DNA of 28,522 bases from a virus. The stretch lies in IMG/VR virus record IMGVR_UViG_3300030102_002433, positions 1 to 28,522 of that record. The stretch is one strand, 5' to 3'. Position 1 is the stretch's first letter; the number at the start of each line of letters is the position of its first letter. This document shows positions 3,052 to 24,972 of this stretch, piece by piece. The translations under genes and the position numbers were made by a program. The notes under the pieces are model-generated. The model worked only from the letters and a program-made list of their open reading frames with translations, did no database searches and was not told where the DNA came from.

Positions 3052-3986
3052 TGGCAACAACTGAACAAACCGTAATAAATAGACAAGCTCCTTTTTTAGA
3101 GGATTATGCTCGTAAACTTTTAGAATCAAGTTATCAAAGATCACAAGATGCTGTAGATGTACCTGATATAAAAGTTGCAGGATTTACCAAAGATCAACAA
3201 GATGCTGTAACAAAAACGAGAGAAGGATTAGGAACTTTTGCACCTTTTTTACAAGGAGCAAGTCAAGCTGTTGAAGAAGCGATTGGTAGACCTTCTATAG
3301 ATCAAACATTCGGTGCACAAGGTATAGCTTCTTTTATGAATCCTTTTACACAAAATGTAATAGATACAACTTTAGCTGATATAGGTAGGCAAGGGCAAAT
3401 AGCTCAAAATCAATTAGCTGCACAATCCGTGGGTCAAGGAGCATTCGGTGGGTCTAGACAAGCTATTGCACGAAATGAACTTGCATCGAATATCTTAGAT
3501 CAACAAGCTAAGACAGCAGGTCAGTTAAGAGCAGCAGGATTTGAGTCTGCTTTACAACAAGCGAGGAACTTAGCTGATGCACAAATAAGAGAAAGAAGTT
3601 TATTAGGTCAATTAGCTGGACAGCAAGCAGGATTAGGTGGTTTACAACAACAGTTACAACAACAAGATGTAGCAAATTTATTAGGAATAGGATCGTTACA
3701 ACAAGGTCAAGCTCAAGCTCTACTTGATGCTGCAAGACAAGGTGATTTACAACAAGCCTACGAACCATTCCAAAGATTAGGTTTCTTTAGTGATATACTA
3801 AGAGGTGTTCCTACAGCTTCGCAAACAGTTACTGCGACAACAGCACCTACTCCTTCATTACTTTCTCAGATAGGTGGTGTTGCTGCAACAGGATTAGGAC
3901 TAGCAGGACAATTAGGATATAGACCTTTTGCAAAAGAGACATCAGGACTTGGTTCTTTTAATTTTAATTTAGGAGGTAGCAAGTAA
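3051..3986 (+). CDS. Glutamine-rich internal virion protein
   Basis: This encodes 311 residues with start ATG overlapping the previous stop (TAATG). It is strongly helical and rich in Gln, Ala, Leu and Gly. A motif around residues 100-150 (NPFTQNVIDTTLADIGRQG, then GAFGGSR) recurs in marine podovirus virion proteins as I remember them. Residues 180-235 are a Q/L-rich probable coiled coil, and residues 265-295 form a Gly/Ala-rich weakly hydrophobic tail. Helical, low-complexity proteins at this map position, downstream of a tail hub and upstream of two very large helical proteins, are typically ejected with the DNA (compare P22 gp7/gp20/gp16). The ejection role is an inference. Confidence 0.6.
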   Translation: MATTEQTVINRQAPFLEDYARKLLESSYQRSQDAVDVPDIKVAGFTKDQQDAVTKTREGLGTFAPFLQGASQAVEEAIGRPSIDQTFGAQGIASFMNPFTQNVIDTTLADIGRQGQIAQNQLAAQSVGQGAFGGSRQAIARNELASNILDQQAKTAGQLRAAGFESALQQARNLADAQIRERSLLGQLAGQQAGLGGLQQQLQQQDVANLLGIGSLQQGQAQALLDAARQGDLQQAYEPFQRLGFFSDILRGVPTASQTVTATTAPTPSLLSQIGGVAATGLGLAGQLGYRPFAKETSGLGSFNFNLGGSK

Positions 3987-6418
3987 TGCAACAAAGAGGA
4001 GGCATACCTTTTGGATTAATAAATCAAAATGATCCTTTGTTTCAAACAGCAGGTAGATCCAGATTTTTGCAAAGCGATATAAATCAAGTAAATCAAAACG
4101 ATTTAAAACAGTTAGGAAAAGCAAGTATAGAAAAAAACTCAGCAGGAGTATTAACTAACGAACTTTTTGCAAAGACAGAACCAAAAGTAGAAAGTTTAGC
4201 TACCGATGATAAAAATACAGTCGATTCTAATTTAACAGGTTTATATGATGGTAGTGGCGATATAGCAAAAATAATGGGAGCATTATCAAAATTATCTAAA
4301 GACGATAAAGCTGATAAATTATATCAAGACTTAATAGATGAAAAAACAACACCAGAAGATGCAAAAGCAAAAGTAAATAAATTTTTTGGTGTAGATAAAA
4401 CAGAAAAGACACCTGCATGGGCAGATGCTGCTTTAGCAATAGGTTCTCAATTATTAGCTCCACCAAAACCAGGACAAACAACATTTCAACAACTTGGAAC
4501 TGCTCTTGCTGCAGGTGGTGTTGCTGCAAAAGCAAAGAAAAAAGAAGAACGAGCAGAAGATCTTGCTATAAATAAACTTGCTTTTGGTGTTTTTAGAGAA
4601 GATGAAAAAAGTAGAAAAGCACTAGCAAAACAATATGCAACTTATAAACAAAAAAGATTACAAGATACAACTAAACTAGGTTTAGATTTAAGTAAGTTAT
4701 TTTTTGATAAACAAAAATTCGAGTTAGAAGAAGATAAGTTTGCTGAAACACAGGGTAAAAATTATGCTAAAGCTGTTACTGATACAGTAAAAACTTTTCC
4801 TGAAGAAGTTCGTAGTAGTTTATTTGATGCTATACAAAAAGATAAAAAGTTTTTAAAAGGTGTTGATCTAAAAGGTGTACCAAATGCTATTTTTGCATTA
4901 GCTAAAGATAATGGTATAAAGACAGATAATGTAAAAGGATCAGATATTGTAAAAAGTGAATTTAAAATAAATACTAAACCACAATTTGAGGCATTAGCTA
5001 AAGCCTATCCTAATTTAGGTTGGGGTGAATATGATCCATCAAAATCATATATATTAAGAGGGTTTAAAAATAAAACAAAACAAGCTCTTTTTACTCAAGC
5101 CCCTAATTTAGAAATAGAACCAAAAAAAGAAAAAACAGGATATTTAGGATTACTAGATGAAAGAATGAAAATAAAGAAAATGGTAAAGCCTAGTCAAGAA
5201 GATTTAGCTAACTTAAAATTAATTGAAGATAAAATAGAAAAAGAAACAAAATTACCTGATGATAGAACTGGTTTAAGAAAAGAACAAGATAGTTTACGAG
5301 CTCTTGAAAGAGAAAAACAAACTGTTAATATGGGGGGTGCAGGTCGTCCTTTAGATGTGATAAATAGAGAAATAGATCAAGTAAAAGGTCGTATAACTAA
5401 ATTAACAACAACAGAAAAAACAGGAACATATTTAGCTCCTGATGGCTCTTTTTATAGTGGTCCTGTAGGTCCAGGAGGATTAGACGAAGTAAAACAACAA
5501 AACACTATAAAAGATTTAGAAACTAGACAAGTAAATTTTGTTCGTGCTGCATATATTGGAGATAAGATTTTATATAATCTTGCTCGTCCAGGGGCAAAAA
5601 AGAATGTAGGTTTATTTGAAACTTTTGCAAATAGAGTTGTTGGTATATCTAGTCAAATAACTAACTTTACTAATATTTCAGCAGAAGATCAAGCTAAGTA
5701 TTCTGGTGAAAACATAGATAATTTAATCGAAGGAAATACTGGGAATACAAGTAAAACATTTGCTGCATTTAAAACAGCAGCAAAAGGCAATCAAAGATTA
5801 ATGTCTGCTGTTATGGATTATGCTTATGCATTAGCAGGTAGTCGTGAAACAGGAAAATTAACCGATAAAGACGTTGCTGCTGCATTAAGAACATTAGGTG
5901 GTGAAGATTTATCAGAAGGTGCGTTTTTTACAAACGTAGATAAATTAATTTCAGGTGTAAGTAATGCTTTAGATTTAGCAAATAATAATCTAGGTGTTGC
6001 TATGAATTTATATTTAGATAAATCATATAAAATGGAAAAGAAAAGAAATCCAGATGCAAATGAAAATGATTATGTATTCGATCCTGTTGCAACAATAAAA
6101 CGTCTATCTCCTGATAAAACACTATATGAACGTATTTTTTCTGGAAAAACAGAATTTTCTCCTCAAGGTTTATCATATCAAAAATTTGAAGAGTACCAAA
6201 AACTTCATGGTGTTTCTTCTAATACTGAGGGAGGTAACGATGTTAATCTAGGGGGTAATGCTTTAAGTCAAGTTGTACAATTAATAAAAAACACTAGAAA
6301 ATTTGGTGTTGATCAAAGTGGAAAGTTAACTCAAGAAGCAACAGATACAATAAAAAATTTATTAGAAAATTTAAGTGTAGAAGAAAGAGCTAAAGCTAAA
6401 CAACAGTTAGGATTATAA
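3986..6418 (+). CDS. Large helical internal virion (ejection-type) protein
   Basis: This encodes 810 residues, with ATG overlapping the preceding stop. It is lysine-rich and almost wholly helical. Around residues 145-195 lies an amphipathic to hydrophobic region followed by a very basic helix (AAKAKKKEERAED). Around 590-645 there is a compact helical domain containing AYALAGSRETGKLTDKDV. I associate this motif with large structural proteins of uncultured marine phages. No peptidase or lytic transglycosylase active site was visible. With the neighbours at 3051 and 6423 it would make up the set of proteins delivered into the cell envelope on infection. This role is inferred from size, composition and map position. 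Confidence 0.6.
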   Translation: MQQRGGIPFGLINQNDPLFQTAGRSRFLQSDINQVNQNDLKQLGKASIEKNSAGVLTNELFAKTEPKVESLATDDKNTVDSNLTGLYDGSGDIAKIMGALSKLSKDDKADKLYQDLIDEKTTPEDAKAKVNKFFGVDKTEKTPAWADAALAIGSQLLAPPKPGQTTFQQLGTALAAGGVAAKAKKKEERAEDLAINKLAFGVFREDEKSRKALAKQYATYKQKRLQDTTKLGLDLSKLFFDKQKFELEEDKFAETQGKNYAKAVTDTVKTFPEEVRSSLFDAIQKDKKFLKGVDLKGVPNAIFALAKDNGIKTDNVKGSDIVKSEFKINTKPQFEALAKAYPNLGWGEYDPSKSYILRGFKNKTKQALFTQAPNLEIEPKKEKTGYLGLLDERMKIKKMVKPSQEDLANLKLIEDKIEKETKLPDDRTGLRKEQDSLRALEREKQTVNMGGAGRPLDVINREIDQVKGRITKLTTTEKTGTYLAPDGSFYSGPVGPGGLDEVKQQNTIKDLETRQVNFVRAAYIGDKILYNLARPGAKKNVGLFETFANRVVGISSQITNFTNISAEDQAKYSGENIDNLIEGNTGNTSKTFAAFKTAAKGNQRLMSAVMDYAYALAGSRETGKLTDKDVAAALRTLGGEDLSEGAFFTNVDKLISGVSNALDLANNNLGVAMNLYLDKSYKMEKKRNPDANENDYVFDPVATIKRLSPDKTLYERIFSGKTEFSPQGLSYQKFEEYQKLHGVSSNTEGGNDVNLGGNALSQVVQLIKNTRKFGVDQSGKLTQEATDTIKNLLENLSVEERAKAKQQLGL

Positions 6419-6422
6419 TTAA

Positions 6423-9344
6423 GTGTCAGATCCAATATTACAAAATATTTTTGATGAAATAGAAACTAATAGATTAAAATCAGCTAGTTCTTCGGTTCAA
6501 GGAATACAAAATTTACCCACTGCTGCATCAGGTTATTTAGAGTCAAAAGGTATTCTTAGCCCAACAGAGTCAGCACTTATGGAACAAGGTGTAGATACAG
6601 TTGGTTTTACTGATACTAGTTTAAAATCTGATACAGAACTAGATATGGAACAAGCAGGGATCTTGAATAAAGGTGCACCAACATCAGTTCGAGCCTTAAT
6701 AAGTTTTGGTCAAGTATCAGATCCAGATTTACAAAAGAAAAATGTCTTATTTCATTTAAATAATTATTATAAAGAACAAGGACTTATAACAGATAATTAT
6801 GACTTTGGTTTAAGAGTTGGACCTCAAAGTGGTCGTTTAGAATATAAAGATCCATCTAATCAAGGAAAATATAATGTTCTTGATCCTGTTGGTTTTAAAG
6901 ATATGATGACAGGAGATTTAGCTGATTTAGCAGGAGATATACCAACTATATTAGCTGAAATAGGAGCTGGTGTAGGAACAACATTTATTCCAGGAATAGG
7001 TCAAACAGGTGTAGCTCAAATAGGTGCTGCATCATTAGCTGCATTAGGAACAGAAATATTAAGATTAAAAGTAGCTAGAAGTACAGGTGCTTTATCACCT
7101 GATGTAACGGATGACGATATTTTAAATACAGCTTTAAATACAGCTAAGTGGAGTGCTTTAGGTGGAACAGGTGGTCTTTTATTATATAAGTTTGGTAGAC
7201 CATTTTTATCTAAATTAGGTTTAGTTCCACAAGGCTTACGTTTTGATTTAGATGAAGAAAGTTTTCTAAAAGCCTATGATTCCTATACTAAATCAGGAGC
7301 AAAACAAAGTGCAGAAGAAATAGGAGTAGTTCCTACTTCTGCTCAGGTTGCAAAATTAGCGTCTGAAGATTCTGGTCTTTCTGCTTTAGAAAAAACACAA
7401 ATGGCAAGTCTTTCTGGTAAATTAGCAAGAGAAGAAAAACTTGTTGCTACTTCTCCTGATCTTGAAACTGGAGCAGCGATTACAGATCCAAGCCTCATGG
7501 CTCAAATATTAGCTAAAGAAAAGTTTGAAAAAGCAGCAGGTGAAGGTGTTGATACTGGAGCAGAAATTACTGAAGAAACTTTATTGAAATTAGGCGAAGG
7601 TGTTCAAAAGAAAACTGTTCAAAACGCAGAAGGATTAAAGTTTGAACTAGAAAAATATACTGATCAAAAACTGGTAGATGTAGAAAAAGGTTTAGATGAT
7701 TTAGTAAACTTACCACCTAATGTTGCTGATGCTTCTACTATAGGAAAGACAGCACAAGATGCAATACAAGAATCTTATTCTAATACTCAAAAGAATTTTG
7801 ATAAAGAGTATGAAAGTTTATACAAAGCATGGGAAAATAAAACAGGTATAAGTATTGATTCTACTATAGTTGGTCAAGGTGGAATAAAGCCATCTGAATT
7901 AGCTACTGAAGTTGTAAAATTAAAAAAGACTTTTAAAGACCGAGCTTTTGTAAATTCTGAAGAAAGAGCATTAATAGATAAAATATACGACACTTTTATA
8001 CTTGCTGAAAAAGGTTCAGCAGTAACAGTAAAAAATATTTCGTTACGAACATTAAACGAAAACCTAAGAGATTTAAGAAGATTAGAAAGAGGAGCTTATC
8101 TAAAATCTCTATCTGGACAAGATTCACCTTATCCAGAAACACTTTCTAAAATGGTAGATGCTTTAGAAAAAGCTAGAACAAGAGTTATAACAAGAAAGAA
8201 CGCTCCATCAGAAATGGCAGAAAAATTAAAAGTTCTAGATGATGGTTTTGCAGATTTTGCTAAAAAATTTAGAAATGCTAAAATATCTTCTATAGCTAAA
8301 TTAAGGAACGCAAGAAACCCTGAAGCTGCATTTAACATTCTATTCAAACCAGATCGAACAGGAAAGACAGCCGTTTTAGAAATAGCTAGTGAATTAAAAG
8401 CTAATCCAAAAAATGCTGATTTAGTTGAATATATAGGAGATACAGTTCGTAAAAAATGGCTAGATGCTGTAGTAAAAAGAAATAAGGATGGTCAGATTAC
8501 ATCAATAAATCAAGCAGCACATGATAAGTTTTTAGATGATTATAAATCAGTCTTTGATGAGTATTTATCTCCTGCATCAAAAGCTGCATTAGATTCTGGT
8601 TCTGTTCGAGAGTTTGCAGATCAAGTAGTAAAAGTACAATCAGAGAAAAAAGCTATTTATAATCTTATAGAAAAAGATTTAAGACTTGCTGGAGGACAAT
8701 TAGATAAACCAGAAACTTTATTTGATTTAGTATGGAAACAAGACGAGATTTCACCTTTTAATAAAGCCTTTCCAATTATAAAGGAAAATACTGAATTATT
8801 GAAAACATTTAAATCTTTAGTTTATAGAGATATGTTGGATCCTCTTAAACAACACGTGATACCAAAAGGTAATGTAATGATTCCAAATTTAGAATTATTA
8901 GTGCCTTATGTTCAAAAGAATAAAAATAAATTACAACAAACTTTTGGTGATCAATATGTAACTAATTTAGAAAAAGTTTTAACAGCTTTAAAACCTGCAT
9001 TAACTGATGTTAGTCCTCAACAAGCTAGACAGCCAACTGATTTATTAACAACATTTGCAAGAAGTGTTGTTGGTGTGTTTACTCGTCCAGGAAGAATATT
9101 AACTTTTATAAATAAGTTTAGAGGTAGAGCAAGAGAAGATGCTTTAGTACAAGGATTAATTGATCCAGATAAGTTAGCAGCAATGGCAAAAGCATCGAAA
9201 CTATCTCCTGGACACTCTGCAGCTATTCAAACATTAGGAAGAATATATTTTGGAGGAGATAGATCTGCACCTTTTGATGAAGATATGAACGTACCTAAAC
9301 CGTCTTCTGCAGAGGAAATATTAAAAGAATTACAAAATAGGTAA
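6423..9344 (+). CDS. Very large internal virion protein with hydrophobic loop
   Basis: This encodes 973 residues, the largest product here. It starts at GTG (6423) four bases after the previous stop; no nearby ATG fits. A conspicuous Gly/Ala/Ile segment at about residues 178-213 (FIPGIGQTGVAQIGAASLAA) could cross or disturb a membrane. A second glycine-rich hydrophobic patch lies near 245-265. The remainder is long helices with charged, coiled-coil-like repeats (residues about 370-700). The C-terminal 60 residues are basic then acidic. The design resembles T7 gp15/gp16-type ejection proteins without sequence identity that I can claim. I saw no transglycosylase signature at the N-terminus. Role inferred from context. 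Confidence 0.6.
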   Translation: MSDPILQNIFDEIETNRLKSASSSVQGIQNLPTAASGYLESKGILSPTESALMEQGVDTVGFTDTSLKSDTELDMEQAGILNKGAPTSVRALISFGQVSDPDLQKKNVLFHLNNYYKEQGLITDNYDFGLRVGPQSGRLEYKDPSNQGKYNVLDPVGFKDMMTGDLADLAGDIPTILAEIGAGVGTTFIPGIGQTGVAQIGAASLAALGTEILRLKVARSTGALSPDVTDDDILNTALNTAKWSALGGTGGLLLYKFGRPFLSKLGLVPQGLRFDLDEESFLKAYDSYTKSGAKQSAEEIGVVPTSAQVAKLASEDSGLSALEKTQMASLSGKLAREEKLVATSPDLETGAAITDPSLMAQILAKEKFEKAAGEGVDTGAEITEETLLKLGEGVQKKTVQNAEGLKFELEKYTDQKLVDVEKGLDDLVNLPPNVADASTIGKTAQDAIQESYSNTQKNFDKEYESLYKAWENKTGISIDSTIVGQGGIKPSELATEVVKLKKTFKDRAFVNSEERALIDKIYDTFILAEKGSAVTVKNISLRTLNENLRDLRRLERGAYLKSLSGQDSPYPETLSKMVDALEKARTRVITRKNAPSEMAEKLKVLDDGFADFAKKFRNAKISSIAKLRNARNPEAAFNILFKPDRTGKTAVLEIASELKANPKNADLVEYIGDTVRKKWLDAVVKRNKDGQITSINQAAHDKFLDDYKSVFDEYLSPASKAALDSGSVREFADQVVKVQSEKKAIYNLIEKDLRLAGGQLDKPETLFDLVWKQDEISPFNKAFPIIKENTELLKTFKSLVYRDMLDPLKQHVIPKGNVMIPNLELLVPYVQKNKNKLQQTFGDQYVTNLEKVLTALKPALTDVSPQQARQPTDLLTTFARSVVGVFTRPGRILTFINKFRGRAREDALVQGLIDPDKLAAMAKASKLSPGHSAAIQTLGRIYFGGDRSAPFDEDMNVPKPSSAEEILKELQNR

Positions 9345-16218: not shown

Positions 16219-16449
16219 ATGACTACAAGCTATAGCAAAATTAAGGGTAGATCAAAAGGTTATAGATATAGAAATTCTATAGTTGATTTACAGAGAAAAT
16301 TATGGAAGGATAATGCAAAGAAAACTCCTGTAGAATTAGAAGAACATGAACGGTTTGAAGATGATCCAAGGGCTTTAAGAGAACAAGATTATGGTAAAGT
16401 AAATAAAATACCAACTTCATTTTTACATAATCGCAGACATAATGACTAA
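16219..16449 (+). CDS. Small basic hypothetical protein
   Basis: This encodes 76 residues. GGAGA lies upstream of ATG 16219, just after the terminator. The N-terminus is Lys/Arg/Tyr-rich (KIKGRSKGYRYRNSI), and the middle is acidic. It overlaps the primase start by eight bases, suggesting coupled translation. No family is recognised; a replication accessory is possible from position alone. Confidence 0.55.
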   Translation: MTTSYSKIKGRSKGYRYRNSIVDLQRKLWKDNAKKTPVELEEHERFEDDPRALREQDYGKVNKIPTSFLHNRRHND

Positions 16450-17974
16450 AATAGTAAAAGATTTTGCTACTCTTTTTTCTGGGTTGAGAAAGGCATATGG
16501 TTCATATGCTCCAGAAGAGGGAAATGGTGTAGGAAAAGAAAAAGGTCGATATAGAATTATATCTGAAGACATAGATGATCTTCGGCTACAAGAATTATGG
16601 AAAAACCATTTAGAGGGTAAAAATTCTCTTGGTATAATACCGATTACGGAAACTAATACTTGTACATGGGGGGCTATTGATATTGATCAATATCCTTTAA
16701 ATCATAGTGATTTAGTAACTAAATTTATAAAAACAAATAAATTACCATTTGTAGTTGCTCGTTCTAAATCTGGTGGTGCACACATATTTGTATTTCTTAG
16801 TGAACCTGTAAGTTGTGCTATCGTTCAACATAAACTAAAAGATATTGCTTCTGTGTTAGGTTATGCAACGGCAGAGATATTTCCTAAACAAACAAAACTT
16901 TTATTAGAAAAAGGTGATAGAGGTAGCACTTTAAATATGCCATATTTTGGTGGAAAGAGGACTACTCGTTATGCTCATGATGATACAGGTGTAGCTATAA
17001 CAGATTTAAATGAGTTTATAGAATATGCAAAACAAAAGACGATAACTAAAGCAGAATTAGAAAGTTTAAAAATTATCTCTGCTGATATGGCTGATAAAGA
17101 TTTAGAAGGTGCACCACCTTGTTTAAAAATACTATGTAGTATGGGCTTTCCTGAAGGAACTAGGAATAATGGTTTATTTGACGTTGGTGTATTTTTAAGA
17201 AAAAAGTTTTCTGACGATTGGGAGAAAAAAGTAGAAGAAAAGAACTTTCAATATATGAAGCCACCACTTGGTGCTTCAGAAGTTTTAGCAGTTATAAAAG
17301 CATTAAGTAATAAAGATTATCAATATAAATGTAATGATCAGCCTATAGCCTCACATTGTAATGCTGCAGTTTGTAGAACTTGTGAGTATGGCGTTGGTTC
17401 TTCTGGGGGCTTACCACAATTTAGTAACCTACAAAAACAAGATTCAACACCACCTATATGGTTTTTAGATGTAGAGGGTCATCGAATAGAGTTAACTACA
17501 GATGAACTACAAAACCAAACTAAGTTCCAAAGAAGATGCATGGACGAGTTAAACTTTATGCCTTTAACTATGAGACAAAATAACTGGAGAACCGTCGTTC
17601 AACAATTATTAGATAGTGTATCTATAATCGAAGTTCCAGAAGATGTATCTGTTCATGGTCAATTTAAAGAGCTTTTAGAATCCTTTTGTACTGAGAGAGC
17701 ACAGGCTCAATCAAGAGATGAATTATTATTAGGAAAGCCTTGGACAGAAGAAAGTAAAACTTTTTTTAGATTAAAAGATTTAATAGACTATTTTAGTCGA
17801 CAACAGTTTAGAGATTATGGAAGAAACCATATTGCTGCACGACTCAGAGAACTGGGAGGTGGGGATCATTTCTTTCATGTAAAAGGTAAAGGTGTAACAG
17901 TTTGGTATGTCCCAGAATTTAAAGCACAAGATGAGGGCTACGAATTACCAAATATGGGGGAGGATCCATTTTGA
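16442..17974 (+). CDS. AEP-superfamily primase (TOTE-type)
   Basis: This encodes 510 residues. The catalytic core shows WGAIDIDQYP (Asp80 and Asp82, metal ligands) and RSKSGGAHIFVF (residues 107-117, Ser110 to His114, nucleotide-binding motif). EIFPKQ follows at 145-150. I associate this set with the archaeo-eukaryotic primase found in TOTE conflict elements and many phages. A helical segment (GTRNNGLFDVGVFLRKKF) is followed by a probable zinc site, Cys297, Cys306, Cys311, Cys314. The C-terminal 190 residues look like helical winged-helix material. It would synthesise primers for the PolA at 22972. The end couples to the UvrD-like helicase through TTGA overlap. A primase role is strongly suggested; the TOTE label is from memory. 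Confidence 0.8.
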   Translation: MTKIVKDFATLFSGLRKAYGSYAPEEGNGVGKEKGRYRIISEDIDDLRLQELWKNHLEGKNSLGIIPITETNTCTWGAIDIDQYPLNHSDLVTKFIKTNKLPFVVARSKSGGAHIFVFLSEPVSCAIVQHKLKDIASVLGYATAEIFPKQTKLLLEKGDRGSTLNMPYFGGKRTTRYAHDDTGVAITDLNEFIEYAKQKTITKAELESLKIISADMADKDLEGAPPCLKILCSMGFPEGTRNNGLFDVGVFLRKKFSDDWEKKVEEKNFQYMKPPLGASEVLAVIKALSNKDYQYKCNDQPIASHCNAAVCRTCEYGVGSSGGLPQFSNLQKQDSTPPIWFLDVEGHRIELTTDELQNQTKFQRRCMDELNFMPLTMRQNNWRTVVQQLLDSVSIIEVPEDVSVHGQFKELLESFCTERAQAQSRDELLLGKPWTEESKTFFRLKDLIDYFSRQQFRDYGRNHIAARLRELGGGDHFFHVKGKGVTVWYVPEFKAQDEGYELPNMGEDPF

Positions 17975-19473
17975 GTGTTGATCCTTCTACTTGGTCTATT
18001 ATTCTTGGACCTCCAGGAACTGGAAAGACTACAACTATTCTTAACTTAATTGAAATGGAGATGCAAAAAGGAACACCTCCAGATAGAATAGGTTATTTTG
18101 CTTTTACAAAGAAAGCATCTGACGAAGGTAAAGAAAGAACAATGAACAGGTTCTCTTTATCAGGAAAAGATATTCCTAATTTTAGAACTTTACATTCTTT
18201 ATGTTACCGAATGTTAGGGCTATCTCGTACTTCGGTCATGGATCGTTCAAACTATAAAGAGTTTAATGATATTATGGGTTTACGTTTAACAGGTGATATA
18301 AACCTAGAAGAAGGATCTATTTCTCTTTTATCGAAAGATGATAAGTTAAAGTTCGTAGAAGGATTAGCAAGATTAAAGTGTCATGATTTAAGAGCCGAGT
18401 GGCAAGAACATTATGACGAAGATATAGATTGGCATACATTAGAACGGTTTTCAAAAGGCTTGTATCAATTTAAACAAGCAAGAGGGTTATACGACTTTAC
18501 TGATATGCTTGATATGTGTGTACAAAAGGAACTTGCACCTAGTTTAGATGTTATGTTTGTAGACGAAGCACAAGACTTATGTCCTTTACAATGGAAATTA
18601 GTAAAGATACTCGCACAAAAATCTAAGAGAGTCTACATTGCTGGTGATGATGATCAAGCTATCTTTAGATGGGCAGGGGCAGACGTAAACTTCTTGATTA
18701 ATATCTCTAACGATGCTAGAATTTTGGAAAAGAGTTATAGAATCCCTCAGAGTGTTTTTAGTGTAGCTAATAAAGTGATAGGTCGTATTAAGACAAGAAC
18801 ACAAAAAACTTGGAGTCCGAGGGAAGAGGCTGGTAATGTAATCACCGAAGCAAGTTTCGAACATATTGATATCTCCTCTGGTCAATGGTTAATACTATCT
18901 CGTTCTAACTATTTATTAAATGAAATAGAAGCACATTGTAGAGGTCTTGGTGTATATTTCGAAAGAAAGAATAATCCATCTATTTCTAAGAAAAAGATAG
19001 AGGCAGTAAAAAACTGGGAAAATTTAAGAAAAGGGTTGTTTATCTTTCCTGATCAAGCAGAAGAATTAGTTCCTTATATAAGAGGATCAAAAAGAAAAGC
19101 ATTTGTTAATATTGATCCCTCACAAAAATTAACATTAAAAGAAGTACAACAATTAGCAGAACTTCCTGAACCTAAGATATGGCACGATATGTTTACTGGG
19201 TTATCTGTTCATGAAAGAAGTTATATTTTGGCTATGTTAAGATTAGGTGAAAAGATAACTAAAAAGCCAAGAATTACTTTATCTACAATACATTCTGCAA
19301 AAGGGGGTGAGGCAGATAATGTTGTTCTTATGACAGATATGCCTCATAGAACTTGGAGGGCTTATGAAAAAGATCCTGACGATGACACTAGAGTTTTTTA
19401 TGTAGGTTTAACTAGGGCTAAACAAAACTTACATATCGTTCAGCCAGTTACCAATAAATACTTTATGATATGA
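17971..19473 (+). CDS. UvrD/PcrA-like superfamily 1 helicase
   Basis: This encodes 500 residues. All main SF1 motifs are visible. Walker A is GPPGTGKT (13-20) and motif Ia is FTKKA. Motif II is DEAQD (198-202) and motif III is GDDDQAIFRWAGA (225-237). Motif IV includes SYR, motif V HSAKGGEAD, and motif VI VFYVGLTRAK (475-484). The protein is shorter than cellular UvrD (about 720), so 1B/2B subdomains must be reduced. The start is TTG at 17971, inside the primase stop, preceded by GGGGGAGGA six bases away. Coupling to the primase gene implies a joint role at the fork, although 3'-5' SF1A enzymes also act in recombination. Confidence 0.92.
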   Translation: MSVDPSTWSIILGPPGTGKTTTILNLIEMEMQKGTPPDRIGYFAFTKKASDEGKERTMNRFSLSGKDIPNFRTLHSLCYRMLGLSRTSVMDRSNYKEFNDIMGLRLTGDINLEEGSISLLSKDDKLKFVEGLARLKCHDLRAEWQEHYDEDIDWHTLERFSKGLYQFKQARGLYDFTDMLDMCVQKELAPSLDVMFVDEAQDLCPLQWKLVKILAQKSKRVYIAGDDDQAIFRWAGADVNFLINISNDARILEKSYRIPQSVFSVANKVIGRIKTRTQKTWSPREEAGNVITEASFEHIDISSGQWLILSRSNYLLNEIEAHCRGLGVYFERKNNPSISKKKIEAVKNWENLRKGLFIFPDQAEELVPYIRGSKRKAFVNIDPSQKLTLKEVQQLAELPEPKIWHDMFTGLSVHERSYILAMLRLGEKITKKPRITLSTIHSAKGGEADNVVLMTDMPHRTWRAYEKDPDDDTRVFYVGLTRAKQNLHIVQPVTNKYFMI

Positions 19474-19542: not shown

Positions 19543-19941
19543 ATGACAGATAAAAAATCAAAGATTACTTTTCCTGACGGCTATTGGCAAGAGTATATGC
19601 CTGGATGTTTTCGATTTTGGCACCCAGAAGAACTTGAAGAAGCAGTTAACTGGAGACAAAAAGTTATTAAACAAAGTTCTAACTCTGAGGAAGTAAAAAA
19701 ATCTTTATACAGATTTGACCCAGAGGCAGTAATTGTTTATAATAAGCACCCAGAAAAGGGTGCATCACAAATGTTAGTGATATTAGATATATTAAAGAAA
19801 CATGGAAAGCCTGTAAGTATTGAAGACTTTTTTCCTATTATAAAAAAGAGTAAGAAACTTCAAACTACTCAACCTGTTGACAGAATATATAAGCACTACC
19901 ATAAAACAATGTTAGCAAATAACTACATCAACTATGAATAG
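19543..19941 (+). CDS. Hypothetical protein, possible winged-helix C-terminus
   Basis: This encodes 132 residues. The N-terminal third is aromatic-rich (YWQEYMPGCFRFWHPEE). Residues about 68-130 look like a winged helix, with ASQMLVILDILKKHGKPVSI reminiscent of helix-turn-helix openings. It follows a promoter-like gap and leads into the methyltransferase nine bases later. I do not recognise the family. A DNA-binding helper for the modification or replication genes is an inference from the C-terminal pattern. Confidence 0.5.
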   Translation: MTDKKSKITFPDGYWQEYMPGCFRFWHPEELEEAVNWRQKVIKQSSNSEEVKKSLYRFDPEAVIVYNKHPEKGASQMLVILDILKKHGKPVSIEDFFPIIKKSKKLQTTQPVDRIYKHYHKTMLANNYINYE

Positions 19942-19950
19942 GAGAAAGCA

Positions 19951-20790
19951 ATGGCTTCGATAAGAAGAAAACTTGCAGTAAATGCAAATAACTCTAAAAA
20001 CACAAGAATGGATATAGCAAGTGCAGGGACACTGGCAAACTGGAGACCAGATGAGTTAGCTCATATTAGTCGTTTTTGTAAGATGGGACAACTAATAATG
20101 GATAAAGCTAAAACTCTTGGAAGACCTGTTGATATATTAGAAATAGGTTGTGGGGAAATATGGACACTTCGTTATTTATATAAAGCCTTTGTTTCTACTA
20201 AGTCAGAGATTGTAAATAGTTATGTTGGTATGGATATAGATCCAGCATGTTTAGATGATTGGTGGGTAGACGATGATCTTCCTGTTACAGAACACCAGTG
20301 GTTTAAAACTATGACTTCTAATAGAGGTCAAATAGTTCTACAAGATTTAACAACTAATCCTGAACCTCCAGTAGAAGATGAATCTATAGATGTCTTTATG
20401 ACAACGGAAGTTATAGAACATATGGGGAGAGAGTTTATCGAACCGTGGATTGAGGCTTCTGCTAGAAAGCTACGTCCAGGAGGTATTGCATATATATCAA
20501 CACCTAACCACGATGGGTCTAATGATAAATTACCTAAAGATCATGTTTATGAGTGGGGCTATCAAGAATTAAAAGACTTATTAGAAAAACATTTCGTATT
20601 AGAACGTCATTATGGAACTTTTACCCAAACAAATAATTTTAATAAAAACCACCGTGCTAATATGAGGTGGTCACAAAATGTTATTGACGATATTAAAAAT
20701 AGATTCGATAAGCATTGGCAAAGAGTAATATTAGCTACGGCTTATCCTGAAACTGCTAATAATGTTAATTGGCATCTAAGGAAGAAGTAA
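19951..20790 (+). CDS. Class I SAM-dependent methyltransferase
   Basis: This encodes 279 residues. TAGGAG precedes the ATG. The SAM-binding motif I is LEIGCGE (63-69), the acidic loop is GMDID (93-97), and a later motif is IDVFMTTEVIEHMG (146-159). KLRPGGIAYISTPN (173-186) is the usual post-motif strand. The pattern is that of small-molecule or sugar methyltransferases (Methyltransf_11/23), not of a DNA cytosine or adenine enzyme, since no DPPY or PC catalytic motif is present. The next gene starts within its stop codon and belongs to a DNA hypermodification family, so methylation of a modified base or nucleotide intermediate is possible. The substrate is unknown. Confidence 0.8.
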   Translation: MASIRRKLAVNANNSKNTRMDIASAGTLANWRPDELAHISRFCKMGQLIMDKAKTLGRPVDILEIGCGEIWTLRYLYKAFVSTKSEIVNSYVGMDIDPACLDDWWVDDDLPVTEHQWFKTMTSNRGQIVLQDLTTNPEPPVEDESIDVFMTTEVIEHMGREFIEPWIEASARKLRPGGIAYISTPNHDGSNDKLPKDHVYEWGYQELKDLLEKHFVLERHYGTFTQTNNFNKNHRANMRWSQNVIDDIKNRFDKHWQRVILATAYPETANNVNWHLRKK

Positions 20791-21620
20791 TGGATCCTGT
20801 TAAAAGGTTTTTCTGGTGGATCGAGGAAAGACATGATATCTTTAAGAAAAAAGAACAAGGTCTTCCTCGTCCTTGGACAACGGATAAGATTTTAGATAAG
20901 TATCGATTTACTAATCCGTTTCGAGAAAACGATAAGACAACTGTTTGGTTTCGAGAGAACATGAGACAACCTCTCCATAACCAAGAAGAAGTTTTTATGG
21001 CTACTGTTATCTTTCGTTGGTTTAATCTTATTGAAACTGGAGAAACTTTATTAAAACATAATCTTCATATTGACTGGGATCCTAAACTTGCCAGAGAAGA
21101 AATTAAGAAACAAAAGAAGTATGTTACAGGGGGTTATATAATAAAAACACCTAATGGTATGGATAAAGTTGATGGTGTTATTTGGTGTATAGAGAAGGTA
21201 TGGGATGAACGAAAAAGTATAATAGAAGAATTAATAGAAAAGACAGAAACTTTGAGACGTGCTCATATCCTCTTTCAAGAATTTCCATATTTAGGTCATT
21301 TTATGGCATATGAACTTGTTACTGATTTAAGACATACGATGTTTCTAAATTCAGCTAAAGATATAAAAACTTGGGCTAATGCAGGTCCAGGAGCAATGAG
21401 AGGATTAAATAGAATATTTGGTAGAGAGTTGGATTGGAAAAGTTCTAAACATAAATGGAACGATGATATGTTAACTTTATTTTATTGGAGACATAATTTT
21501 TTACCACCAGAGATAGCTACAGTTATGGAGATGAGAGAGATAGAACATAGTCTTTGTGAGTTTGATAAATATGAACGAGTCCGTTTAGGACAAGGTACAC
21601 CAAGAGGGAGATATAAATGA
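20790..21620 (+). CDS. DNA base hypermodification protein (5-hmdU kinase helical-domain / aGPT-PPlase-like)
   Basis: This encodes 276 residues. I chose ATG 20790 (TAATG overlap, AAGGAAG upstream) over a TTG seven codons earlier. The protein matches the pattern I recall for the helical family proposed by Iyer and colleagues for thymine hypermodification. The opening is FFWWIEERHDI, then PRPWTTDKILDKYRF (26-40) and NPFRENDKTTVWF (42-54). GGYIIKTPNG (114-123) and GHFMAYELVTDL (169-180) follow. The block WANAGPGAMRGLNR (195-208) resembles the DNA-glycosylase-like core. Such proteins act on 5-hydroxymethyluracil in DNA as kinase partner or pyrophosphorylase-transferase. No P-loop kinase domain is fused here. 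The subfamily is undecided; adjacency to a TS-like enzyme supports the role. Confidence 0.8.
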   Translation: MDPVKRFFWWIEERHDIFKKKEQGLPRPWTTDKILDKYRFTNPFRENDKTTVWFRENMRQPLHNQEEVFMATVIFRWFNLIETGETLLKHNLHIDWDPKLAREEIKKQKKYVTGGYIIKTPNGMDKVDGVIWCIEKVWDERKSIIEELIEKTETLRRAHILFQEFPYLGHFMAYELVTDLRHTMFLNSAKDIKTWANAGPGAMRGLNRIFGRELDWKSSKHKWNDDMLTLFYWRHNFLPPEIATVMEMREIEHSLCEFDKYERVRLGQGTPRGRYK

Positions 21621-22681
21621 TAACATTTCGTGGCGATAACGTAGAAGAAGTATTTCAAATAGCAGTAATGTCATTAAGAGAACCACACAATATGGTAAAG
21701 ATACCAAGTAGAAATGGTGATGTCTTAATGTTCAGAGATCCTGTTTGTTCTACTTATAACTTTCCAAGAGAACGAGTAATGTTTCTTCCTGAGAGAAATT
21801 GTAATCCTTTCTTTCATTTTATAGAAGGTTTATGGATGTTAGCTGGTCGAAGAGATGTAGAACCATTAGCAAGATTTGTAAAAAGAATGAAAGAGTTTTC
21901 TGACGATGGTAACTTTTTATATGGGTCTTATGGTTATCGTTGGCGAAACCAGTTTGGCTACGATCAATTACATGACGTTATTAAAAAGCTAAAAGAGAAT
22001 AAATGGGATAGGCGAATAGTTTTATCAATGTGGGATCCTGTACACGATCTTCATTATAAAGGCAAAGATGTTCCTTGTAATACTCAAATATATTTTAAAG
22101 CCTATCCAACAAAAGAATTAGGTGAAGAAAATAATCAAATAAAATTAGATATGACTGTATGTTGTAGATCTAATGATTTAATTTGGGGTGCATATGGGGC
22201 TAACGCAGTTCACTTTAGTATGCTTCATGAATATATAGCAACGATGTCAGGGCTAAGTGTAGGTTGTTATCATCAAATTAGTAATAATGCTCATGTTTAT
22301 TTAGATGTCTGGAATGAACTAGATAAGAAACTTTCTAAAGGTATCTCTCCTCATGGCTATGAAGTTAACCCAGAGATTACATGGCAAGACTTAATACAAG
22401 ATAAACAAAACTTCGATAAAGATTTAAATTATTTCTTTAACCTGTTTTGTTCTAGTAAAGATAATGAAGAACTAGGTGGTATGTGGATAACCCCAGATCA
22501 TTTTAGTAATATGAAAACATTCGCTTATACAGCGATACCTCTTGTTGAGGCATGGAACTATTATAAACAAAAAGATTATAAACATGCCATACTGCAAGCC
22601 TCAACTATCCAAGCACCAGATTGGAGAAAAGCATGTATGGAGTGGTTAGAAAGAAAGGAAGAGAGAGCTAAGAATGACTGA
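21617..22681 (+). CDS. Thymidylate synthase-family enzyme, probable dUMP hydroxymethylase
   Basis: This encodes 354 residues of the ThyA fold. Glu70 (FIEGLWMLAG), the catalytic cysteine Cys154 in VPCNTQIYF, RSND (184-187), Asn196, and His226/Tyr228 (NNAHVY) match the ThyA dUMP and folate residues. Departures are PCN instead of PCH, one extra residue before Asn196, and SNNAH instead of GDxH. Such variation is expected in deoxynucleotide hydroxymethylases, which add CH2OH instead of CH3. Keeping Asn196, where dCMP enzymes carry Asp, favours dUMP, giving 5-hydroxymethyl-dUMP. The gene overlaps the hypermodification gene by four bases. Plain thymidylate synthase remains possible. Confidence 0.8.
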   Translation: MITFRGDNVEEVFQIAVMSLREPHNMVKIPSRNGDVLMFRDPVCSTYNFPRERVMFLPERNCNPFFHFIEGLWMLAGRRDVEPLARFVKRMKEFSDDGNFLYGSYGYRWRNQFGYDQLHDVIKKLKENKWDRRIVLSMWDPVHDLHYKGKDVPCNTQIYFKAYPTKELGEENNQIKLDMTVCCRSNDLIWGAYGANAVHFSMLHEYIATMSGLSVGCYHQISNNAHVYLDVWNELDKKLSKGISPHGYEVNPEITWQDLIQDKQNFDKDLNYFFNLFCSSKDNEELGGMWITPDHFSNMKTFAYTAIPLVEAWNYYKQKDYKHAILQASTIQAPDWRKACMEWLERKEERAKND

Positions 22682-22982
22682 GAAACGTAGTAAGATAATA
22701 CAAAAAGTTAATGTACTAGCTAACGACGATGTTAGTGCTTTGCATGAAGCAGAAAAGTCTTATGGAGATAGTTGGAAAAAGCGAGGTGGTATAGGTGCTT
22801 TTATGATGTTAGCTAGGAAGTGGGATCGTATAGAAAACCAATCAAACGATTATACTTACGATATCTTTTTAGCTTTAGAAGAGGATCAGAGACCAGAAGG
22901 ACTTATAGACGATATAAGAGACCTTAGACGTTATCTGCTCTTAGTCGAAGCACAAATGGCTTTACAAAAGAATGTTAAATAA
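22674..22982 (+). CDS. Nmad1/DUF1599-like nucleotide-modification-associated protein
   Basis: This encodes 102 residues, all helical, overlapping the TS-like gene by eight bases. The pattern is AEKSYGDSWKKRGG (27-40), LARKWDRIE, then EGLIDDIRDLRRYL. It follows the YG-SW ... K-RI ... EG--D---DL--Y scheme I recall for DUF1599, named nucleotide modification associated domain 1 because of its company with base-modification genes. A MazG-like all-alpha nucleotide-binding fold is the other reading. Either way it would act on the modified nucleotide pool. The match is by eye, and the family is held with moderate confidence. Confidence 0.6.
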   Translation: MTEKRSKIIQKVNVLANDDVSALHEAEKSYGDSWKKRGGIGAFMMLARKWDRIENQSNDYTYDIFLALEEDQRPEGLIDDIRDLRRYLLLVEAQMALQKNVK

Positions 22983-24972
22983 GGTAAACTCTTTCCCAGA
23001 GAAAGGGAAGAAAGCATTGCCGAAATATAAAAATCCTTTACAGGATCCTCTGTTCCCTCCTGATAGTGCATGGACAGTTCCAGAAGTGCTACCAGACTTA
23101 TCCAAAGCTAAAGAAATAGCTATTGACCTTGAAACATGGGATCCTAACTTACGATCTAAAGGTGCAGGTTGGGCGAAGAAAGATGGACATATTGTTGGTA
23201 TCGCTGTAGCTACTGATGGTTGGGAAGGTTATTTTCCAATACGACATAGATCAGGGGGCAACTTAGACGAAAAAGTTGTTTTTAATTGGTTAAAAGACAT
23301 GGTATCTACAGATGCAGATAAAGTTTGTCATAATGCTTCATATGATATTGGTTGGTTAAAAGCAGAGGGTGTTAATGTAAAAGGTCGTATAATTGATACT
23401 ATGATCGGTGCACCTTTAATAGATGAAAACAGATTTAGTTATGCTTTAAATGCGTTAGGTAAACATTACTTACAAGAAACGAAAAGTGAAGACTTGTTAC
23501 GTGATGCCGCAGAAGCATGGAATGTAGACCCAAAAGCAGATATATCAGAACTACCACCTATGTATGTTGGTCCATATGCAGAACAAGATGCTGCGATGAC
23601 ATTAAGGTTATGGAAGTTTCAAAAACAAGAATTATCAAGACAAGACTTATGGTCGATATTTAATTTAGAAACATCGATACTACCATTACTTATCGAAATG
23701 AGGTTTAAAGGTGTTCGTATTGATTTAGATCATGCAGAACGTATGTCTAAAATGTTTAGGGCTAAAGAAGAAGATGCTTTATTACAGATAAAAAAGTTAG
23801 TTGGATCAAATGTAGAAATATGGGCGAATGCATCTATAGAAAAAGCATTTAAGAAATTAAAACTACCATATAACTTTACAGAAAAAGGATCACCCTCCTT
23901 TCAACAATCATGGTTAGAAAACCACGAACATGAAGTTCCAAAGCTGATTGTAAAAGCACGAAAGATGAATAAAGCAAGGACAACATTTATCGACGGAATG
24001 CTTATGAGTAATCAACAATCAGGTCGTCTTCATGCTGAACTACATCCACTTCGTTCTGATGATGGTGGTACGGTTACAGGTCGTTTTAGTTACAGTAATC
24101 CTAATCTACAACAAGTCCCAGCAAGGGATCCTGAAATAGGCACGGCTATCCGATCATTATTTATTCCTGAAGAGGGATGTCAGTGGGGTGCTTTTGATTA
24201 CTCTCAACAAGAACCAAGACTCGTTGTTCATTATGCAGAGATGATGGAACTTCGTGGGGCAAAAGAAGCTGGGGATGCATTTAGAGATGGAGATGCAGAC
24301 TTCCATCAAGTCGTAGCTGATATGGCTGGCATACCAAGAAAGCAAGCAAAGAATATAAACTTAGGATTATTTTATTCTATGGGTGTTCAAAAACTGTCTA
24401 GTAGTCTAGGGTTAACGATGGAAGAAGGAAAAGAATTATTTAGTCAATACCATGAACGAGTTCCATTTGTAAAAGCCCTTAGTGAACGAGCTATACGACG
24501 TGCTGCAGATCAAGGCAATATAAGAACATTATTAGGAAGACGTTGTCGTTTCGATAAGTGGGAGCCAATGCAGTTTGGTACACGAAAAATTATGGATCAT
24601 AAAACTGCTTATGCTGAACATGGTAATGCTATTAAAAGGGCTTTTACACATAAAGCTATGAATAGATTAATACAAGGTAGTGCCGCAGATATGACTAAAA
24701 AAGCAATGCAGTTATTGTTCGAAGAAGGAATTATACCTCATATACAAGTTCATGACGAATTAGATTTTTCTGTAGAATCAGAAGAACAAGCAGTAAAGAT
24801 AAAAGAAATTATGGAACATTGTGTAGAAATAAAAGTCCCTGTAAAAGTAGACGTGGAACTTGGACCAAACTGGGGTGAAGCTAAAGATGCTTCTAAAGTC
24901 ATAGCTCATGCTGAATCTGTTAGAGGTTGGACGAGAGGCTCTGAGTCAGATTATACAAAGCAAGCAGTATAA
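22972..24972 (+). CDS. Family A DNA polymerase with 3'-5' exonuclease
   Basis: This encodes 666 residues from ATG 22972 (an in-frame TTG at 23017 with a GGGAAG site is an alternative). The proofreading domain has Exo I IDLETWD (Asp52, Glu54), Exo II HNASYDIGWL (Asp125) and Exo III YAEQDAAMT (Tyr202, Asp206). The polymerase domain has motif A FDYSQQEPR (Asp409), motif B RKQAKNINLGLFYSMG (Lys460, Tyr468) and motif C QVHDELD (Asp595). There is no 5'-3' exonuclease domain, as in T7. At the position equivalent to E. coli PolA Phe762 it has Leu464. The enzyme would replicate the phage genome with the upstream primase and helicase. Confidence 0.95.
   Translation: MLNKVNSFPEKGKKALPKYKNPLQDPLFPPDSAWTVPEVLPDLSKAKEIAIDLETWDPNLRSKGAGWAKKDGHIVGIAVATDGWEGYFPIRHRSGGNLDEKVVFNWLKDMVSTDADKVCHNASYDIGWLKAEGVNVKGRIIDTMIGAPLIDENRFSYALNALGKHYLQETKSEDLLRDAAEAWNVDPKADISELPPMYVGPYAEQDAAMTLRLWKFQKQELSRQDLWSIFNLETSILPLLIEMRFKGVRIDLDHAERMSKMFRAKEEDALLQIKKLVGSNVEIWANASIEKAFKKLKLPYNFTEKGSPSFQQSWLENHEHEVPKLIVKARKMNKARTTFIDGMLMSNQQSGRLHAELHPLRSDDGGTVTGRFSYSNPNLQQVPARDPEIGTAIRSLFIPEEGCQWGAFDYSQQEPRLVVHYAEMMELRGAKEAGDAFRDGDADFHQVVADMAGIPRKQAKNINLGLFYSMGVQKLSSSLGLTMEEGKELFSQYHERVPFVKALSERAIRRAADQGNIRTLLGRRCRFDKWEPMQFGTRKIMDHKTAYAEHGNAIKRAFTHKAMNRLIQGSAADMTKKAMQLLFEEGIIPHIQVHDELDFSVESEEQAVKIKEIMEHCVEIKVPVKVDVELGPNWGEAKDASKVIAHAESVRGWTRGSESDYTKQAV

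Follow-up and report, generated by a model that had tools for sequence, protein, structure and literature searches.

Thymine hypermodification of the M6 type has already been proposed for the HTVC023P-type pelagiphages, in clades V, VIII and IX of which a thymidylate synthase (TS) gene and an aG/PT-PPlase1 gene lie near the gene for DNA polymerase A (PolA), and some genomes of which encode a glucosyltransferase and a 5'-deoxynucleotidase (available portion of Wittmers et al. 2022, PMC9599517). The word 'methyltransferase' is absent from its main text, and no discussion of a missing kinase and transferase was found in that portion. The M6/YuA cluster, associated with 5-(2-aminoethyl)-deoxyuridine (5-NedU), likewise has a TS of the deoxyuridine monophosphate (dUMP) hydroxymethylase type and a PF18723 protein (HMUDK_hel, or aGPT-Pplase1) upstream of the PolA gene, together with a P-loop kinase (PF18748), a PF18724 amino acid:DNA transferase, a radical S-adenosylmethionine (SAM) enzyme, a pyridoxal phosphate (PLP) enzyme and Nmad5. 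Here we describe a locus in IMG/VR record IMGVR_UViG_3300030102_002433, a 28.5 kb fragment of a viral contig (28,522 nucleotides, hereafter the window), which evidently belongs to the same pelagiphage group and has the same two genes near PolA; since the pair has been published for these phages, its detection here is largely a rediscovery. The window differs from M6 in having none of the kinase, transferase, radical SAM, PLP or Nmad5 genes, and has a SAM-dependent methyltransferase instead. The gene order PF18723, TS, Pam3_54, PolA of Pseudanabaena phage Pam3 agrees with that of the window, but Pam3 keeps the kinase, transferase, PLP, radical SAM and Nmad5 genes, and a methyltransferase of the family considered here was not found in its region.

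We hypothesize that the window cassette makes a hypermodified thymine by a route that uses neither the M6 kinase nor the M6 amino-acid step, and put the probability of this reading as a whole at about 50%. The TS-family enzyme would convert dUMP to 5-hydroxymethyl-dUMP, which would enter the deoxynucleoside triphosphate pool; from there the adjacent PolA would incorporate it into phage DNA as 5-hydroxymethyl-deoxyuridine (5-hmdU), replacing some or all of the thymine. The PF18723 protein, with its glycosylase fold, would recognise and extrude 5-hmdU in DNA, and the methyltransferase encoded by the overlapping gene would methylate the C5 substituent with SAM as donor, in the simplest case on the hydroxyl, giving 5-(methoxymethyl)-deoxyuridine. 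We infer from the gene content that the phage DNA carries a non-canonical base; by analogy with M6 and ViI, such a base may protect against host nucleases.

Gene content, order and translational coupling are observed directly (Table 1). The original prediction described three overlapping genes followed by a polymerase, all of which are present as described, but overlooked the methyltransferase gene as a member of the same cassette. The methyltransferase stop codon and the PF18723 start codon share one nucleotide in the sequence TAATG, and the ATG at 20790, giving 276 residues, is the likely start. The order methyltransferase, PF18723, TS, small protein, PolA is conserved in marine loci, in which the TAATG coupling is common. 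In DSL-LC04, which lacks the cassette, the PolA gene abuts the helicase gene, and just two small genes separate them in 023Pt_psg01. In HTVC023P-type relatives, homologues of the 132-residue protein precede the methyltransferase, whereas in a second methyltransferase clade they lie downstream of PolA; because its position differs between the two clades, this protein is not an obligate part of the cassette.

Table 1. Genes of the cassette and its borders in the window.
Feature	Coordinates	Strand	Remarks
UvrD/Dda-like helicase	17971..19473	+	Left border of cassette
132-aa protein	19543..19941	+	Between helicase and methyltransferase
SAM-dependent class I methyltransferase, 279 aa	19951..20790	+	Methyltransf_23 E 5e-10; proposed tailoring enzyme
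PF18723 HMUDK_hel protein, 276 aa	20790..21620	+	166.6 bits, E 9.9e-49
TS-family enzyme, dUMP hydroxymethylase type (predicted), 354 aa	21617..22681	+	phrog_5131 E 9.5e-99; Thymidylat_synt E 3.8e-23
Small cassette protein, 102 aa	22674..22982	+	Homologue of Pam3_54
DNA polymerase A (PolA)	22972..24972	+	PF00476 E 1.5e-66; right border of cassette

Our marine survey comprised 86 PF18723 loci, taken as gene neighbourhoods, and 38 contigs (24-84 kb, many of 50-67 kb) that were searched whole. Of the 86 loci, 72 have the methyltransferase gene immediately before PF18723, and a scan seeded with the methyltransferase found PF18723 directly downstream in all 79 loci with room for it, mostly with a 1-nt overlap; with many contigs in common, the two scans do not count as independent samples. 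Mean identity is 63.8% for the methyltransferase and 64.3% for PolA, so that on average the two are conserved to about the same degree. Taken with the rest of the cassette, these data make it probable that the methyltransferase acts in the thymine-modification pathway.

A second branch of this methyltransferase family (branch B) was found in Stenotrophomonas phage AXL3, in ctUtU524 and in 22 viral contigs. Its members are 26-30% identical to the marine branch (30% for AXL3) and have the motifs STPxxDG and NNxxW in common with it. In AXL3 (gp27-gp31), as in the window, the methyltransferase gene lies near a gene for a pyrimidine hydroxymethylase; the AXL3 hydroxymethylase differs in having the Asp of the cytosine type, and the AXL3 record has no PF18723. 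A cytosine-type (deoxycytidine monophosphate, dCMP) hydroxymethylase is near the methyltransferase in 23 of 24 branch B loci, the remaining locus being truncated; most of these loci also hold NTP pyrophosphatase, kinase-like and dCMP deaminase genes, and PF18723 was not found in them. The two branches thus each stand beside a hydroxymethylase of a different base type, which suggests the hydroxymethyl group as the target and is the reason for proposing 5-(methoxymethyl)-deoxyuridine; O-methylation to this product is a tentative assignment, with odds somewhat below even. A different possibility is that the methyltransferase acts on the nucleotide pool, on 5-hmdUMP or a precursor, and that the PF18723 protein has a separate role at the DNA level. 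The AXL3-type loci, in which a related methyltransferase and a hydroxymethylase occur with a monophosphate-kinase-like gene and an NTP pyrophosphatase in the absence of PF18723, speak for such an arrangement; however, in the marine branch PF18723 directly followed the methyltransferase in all 79 loci, which suggests joint action, and we consider methylation in the pool unlikely, if the least so of the alternatives.

AXL3 DNA resisted 35 of 37 restriction enzymes, the two that cut having A/T-only sites (PMC7504290), a pattern consistent with a modified cytosine. The AXL3 'thymidylate synthase' gp28 (L118:10184-10993), like L119:8056-8844, has the motif PCT and the motif RSSD..LGVPYD, in which Asp replaces Asn, and is by these motifs more likely a dCMP hydroxymethylase than a thymidylate synthase, which would explain the resistance at G/C-containing sites. 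The neighbouring 'thymidylate kinase' gp29 (L118:9220-10203) has a P-loop N-terminus, and its C-terminal half resembles, by eye, motifs of the uracil-DNA-glycosylase type (GEDFG...PF.S.NG).

The 5-hmdU DNA kinase PF18748 was found in none of the 38 PF18723-bearing marine contigs searched whole, nor in the window, itself a fragment, and the amino acid:DNA transferase PF18724 was absent from all 38; the first 14 loci likewise lacked both. Both families accompany PF18723 in each of four cultured phages (M6, PaMx11, Pam3 and SFP10). In the 86 neighbourhoods, searches with seed profiles detected neither the kinase nor the transferase, and neither a PLP gene nor a radical SAM gene of the M6 type. 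A P-loop motif, sought in the window and in four relatives that include contigs of 51 and 59 kb scanned whole, occurs only in the UvrD helicase. The locus is thus without the kinase and the transferase that define the M6-type pathway, and the missing kinase is a conserved feature of marine PF18723 phages, new here. The original prediction had noted the helical protein standing without an adjacent P-loop kinase, which is borne out, and had offered two explanations, a different second step or a kinase elsewhere in the genome: the methyltransferase in place of the kinase favours the first, and the negative searches of whole contigs count against the second. An assumption that ViI-type phages lack PF18723 proved wrong, as SFP10 encodes it 48 kb from the kinase, in a protein with no other Pfam domain.

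It could nevertheless be that 5-hmdU is phosphorylated, as in the M6-type pathway, by the PF18723 protein together with a kinase that escaped detection, has diverged or belongs to the host, and that the methyltransferase modifies a later adduct. Pfam names PF18723 '5-hmdU DNA kinase, helical domain', it adjoins the kinase in M6, PaMx11 and Pam3, and diverged kinases can escape the PF18748 profile, the PaMx11 kinase scoring just 17 bits. Set against this, the two contigs scanned whole have no Walker-A open reading frame (ORF) besides the helicase, and with PF18724 absent the phosphate would have no known next step; a hidden kinase seems to us a little less likely still than methylation in the nucleotide pool.

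Partner enzymes other than this methyltransferase also occur at the locus. Most kinase-less loci without it carry glycosyltransferases, radical-SAM enzymes or another methyltransferase. In L054-L056 a glycosyltransferase-like gene and a radical SAM/SPASM enzyme lie between PF18723 and TS, and in L054 (10825-13698) additionally a cytidylyltransferase-cupin fusion, a predicted gene set pointing to a sugar-based thymine modification. L075 and L094 have an FkbM-type methyltransferase, L075 also a glycosyltransferase, and TET-associated glycosyltransferases (PF20691) stand beside PF18723 or TS in L013 (10913-14377; a sub-cutoff match, also with two radical SAM/SPASM enzymes) and L014 (11079-11894). 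In the PF18723 tree the partner types form distinct clades, with the methyltransferase type as two clades around the glycosyltransferase/radical-SAM clade and PaMx11 beside the FkbM type, some joins being weakly supported and branches long. It is directly observed, then, that the partner enzyme is exchanged at this locus while PF18723 and the hydroxymethylase stay constant.

The 276-residue protein, predicted to be a helical protein of the hypermodification type, does belong to PF18723, scoring well over the family cutoff of 25 bits, and its closest named relatives are in PaMx11-like and M6-like Pseudomonas phages. Its AlphaFold2 (AF2) model (mean predicted local distance difference test, pLDDT, 91) matches helix-hairpin-helix (HhH) DNA glycosylases, with Z 11.3 for 3knt, and scores Z 11.2 with 8z2n, the solved structure of the PaMx11 gp46 5-phosphomethyl-deoxyuridine (5-PmdU) glycinyltransferase; an invariant Asp, D198 in the window protein, corresponds in position to the glycosylase catalytic Asp, as mapped by motif. 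The modelled fold fits a base-flipping protein acting on DNA. The invariant core of PF18723 is retained in kinase-bearing and kinase-less phages alike, and a role tied solely to the kinase does not fit the latter. A search of PDB sequences with the protein gave no match. Profile comparison lent no support to homology between PF18723 and PF18724: hhalign aligned just a short shared C-terminal motif (probability 0.3%), and the fold match to the glycinyltransferase is no better than those to DNA glycosylases. Stand-alone PF18723-like proteins, annotated as nucleotide kinase domain proteins, also occur on bacterial and archaeal plasmids (matches H199-H208). Validated anti-phage defence domains include a 5-hydroxymethyluracil kinase and a thymidylate synthase (PMC13092281).

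The finished base might also be 5-hmdU itself. The methyltransferase would then have some unrelated target, for instance a protein or an RNA, and the PF18723 protein would be a remnant or have a binding role. Phage SP8 uses unelaborated 5-hmdU (PMC7653180), and the substrates of class I methyltransferases are very varied; yet PF18723 keeps its invariant core in kinase and kinase-less phages, and the methyltransferase is coupled to PF18723 and conserved like PolA, so that we regard this as improbable.

The active site of the TS-family protein is directly seen to be of the hydroxymethylase type. Aligned over its full length, the protein is ~41% identical to M6 gp58, and the motifs PCN and RSND..WG.YGAN are common to it, to M6 gp58 and to the dUMP hydroxymethylase SPO1 gp29, where ThyA by contrast aligns with PCH and RSxD..GxPFN; SPO1 differs from the window in having no PF18723 protein. 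T4 gp42, MilA and AXL3 gp28 have Asp at the position where uracil-acting enzymes have Asn. RSND and this Asn are kept in 88 of 89 relatives from the scanned loci, the exception being a truncated ORF. All NCBIfam ThyA equivalogs fall below cutoff (best 72.4 bits vs 174.55). Of the departures from ThyA named in the original prediction, PCN is present and SNNAH is the TS 'DxHxY' region. Judged by its active-site residues, the enzyme probably synthesises the 5-hmdU precursor. That it is an ordinary thymidylate synthase, the cassette merely boosting thymidine monophosphate supply for DNA with normal thymine, would accord with its TS superfamily membership and its catalytic Cys and uracil-type Asn, but is highly improbable for an enzyme below every ThyA cutoff that is nearest to the M6 and SPO1 hydroxymethylases and occurs with PF18723 in 85 of 86 loci.

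The small protein encoded between TS and PolA is present in 82 of the 86 loci. It has no Pfam or NCBIfam match; its homologue Pam3_54, to which 79% of its length aligns at 55% identity, carries the annotation 'nucleotide modification' and sits inside a full M6-type cluster. Its earlier label as Nmad1/DUF1599-like found no support from profile searches: even with an E 10 threshold, PF07659 matched nothing in the window, in Pam3 or in the relatives.

It may be that PF18723 is a general module presenting 5-hmdU in DNA to interchangeable partners (the kinase in M6 and PaMx11, the SAM methyltransferase in most marine phages sampled, glycosyltransferases and radical SAM enzymes elsewhere), with 5-(methoxymethyl)-deoxyuridine as the window product; in this full form we find the proposal doubtful, at appreciably less than even odds. 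Several points weigh against the kinase-independent route more broadly. It is drawn from sequences and predicted structures, the window phage being known as sequence only and the contigs being metagenomic and in some cases fragments. The methyltransferase model (AF2, pLDDT 81) has an ordinary class I fold and its match singles out no substrate: CmoM (4htf), which methylates tRNA uridine at a C5 side chain, comes first but is tied with many class I methyltransferases, and reading a substrate from the fold was rejected. The partial correlation of methyltransferase and PF18723 distances, with PolA and UvrD controlled, is weak (0.15), and the conserved adjacency across marine loci is partly owed to shared descent. 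The Pfam naming of PF18723 as a kinase domain points the same way, and branch B, lacking PF18723 and being so distant from the marine branch, may have another substrate or work on mononucleotides.

In ocean phages of the SAR11-phage type, thymine hypermodification appears to have a second branch, one that differs from the Pseudomonas-phage route and is common in marine viral contigs. If the methyltransferase does cap 5-hmdU, both the DNA base and the DNA-modifying activity of the enzyme would be new; we found nothing relevant in the literature on methoxymethyl pyrimidines in phage DNA, and no earlier report of 5-(methoxymethyl)-deoxyuridine as a DNA base. PF18723 would then no longer be read as 'part of a kinase' but as a shared module that handles the substrate.

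The podovirus context that had been suspected holds: judged by its replication genes, the window phage is a marine podovirus of the HTVC023P type, because it shares with 023Pt_psg01 and DSL-LC04 a syntenic set of primase, UvrD helicase and PolA genes, in the same order and at 38-58% identity. Its PolA is closest to that of phage 023Pt_psg01 (57.7% identity), DSL-LC04 and Pelagibacter phages HTVC023P and HTVC027P. Elsewhere in the window, two long ORFs of 810 and 973 residues (3986-6418 and 6423-9344) lie in the structural region without a confident family match, and the primase (16442-17974) matches the archaeo-eukaryotic primase domain of TOTE conflict systems (PF22548, E 2e-13).

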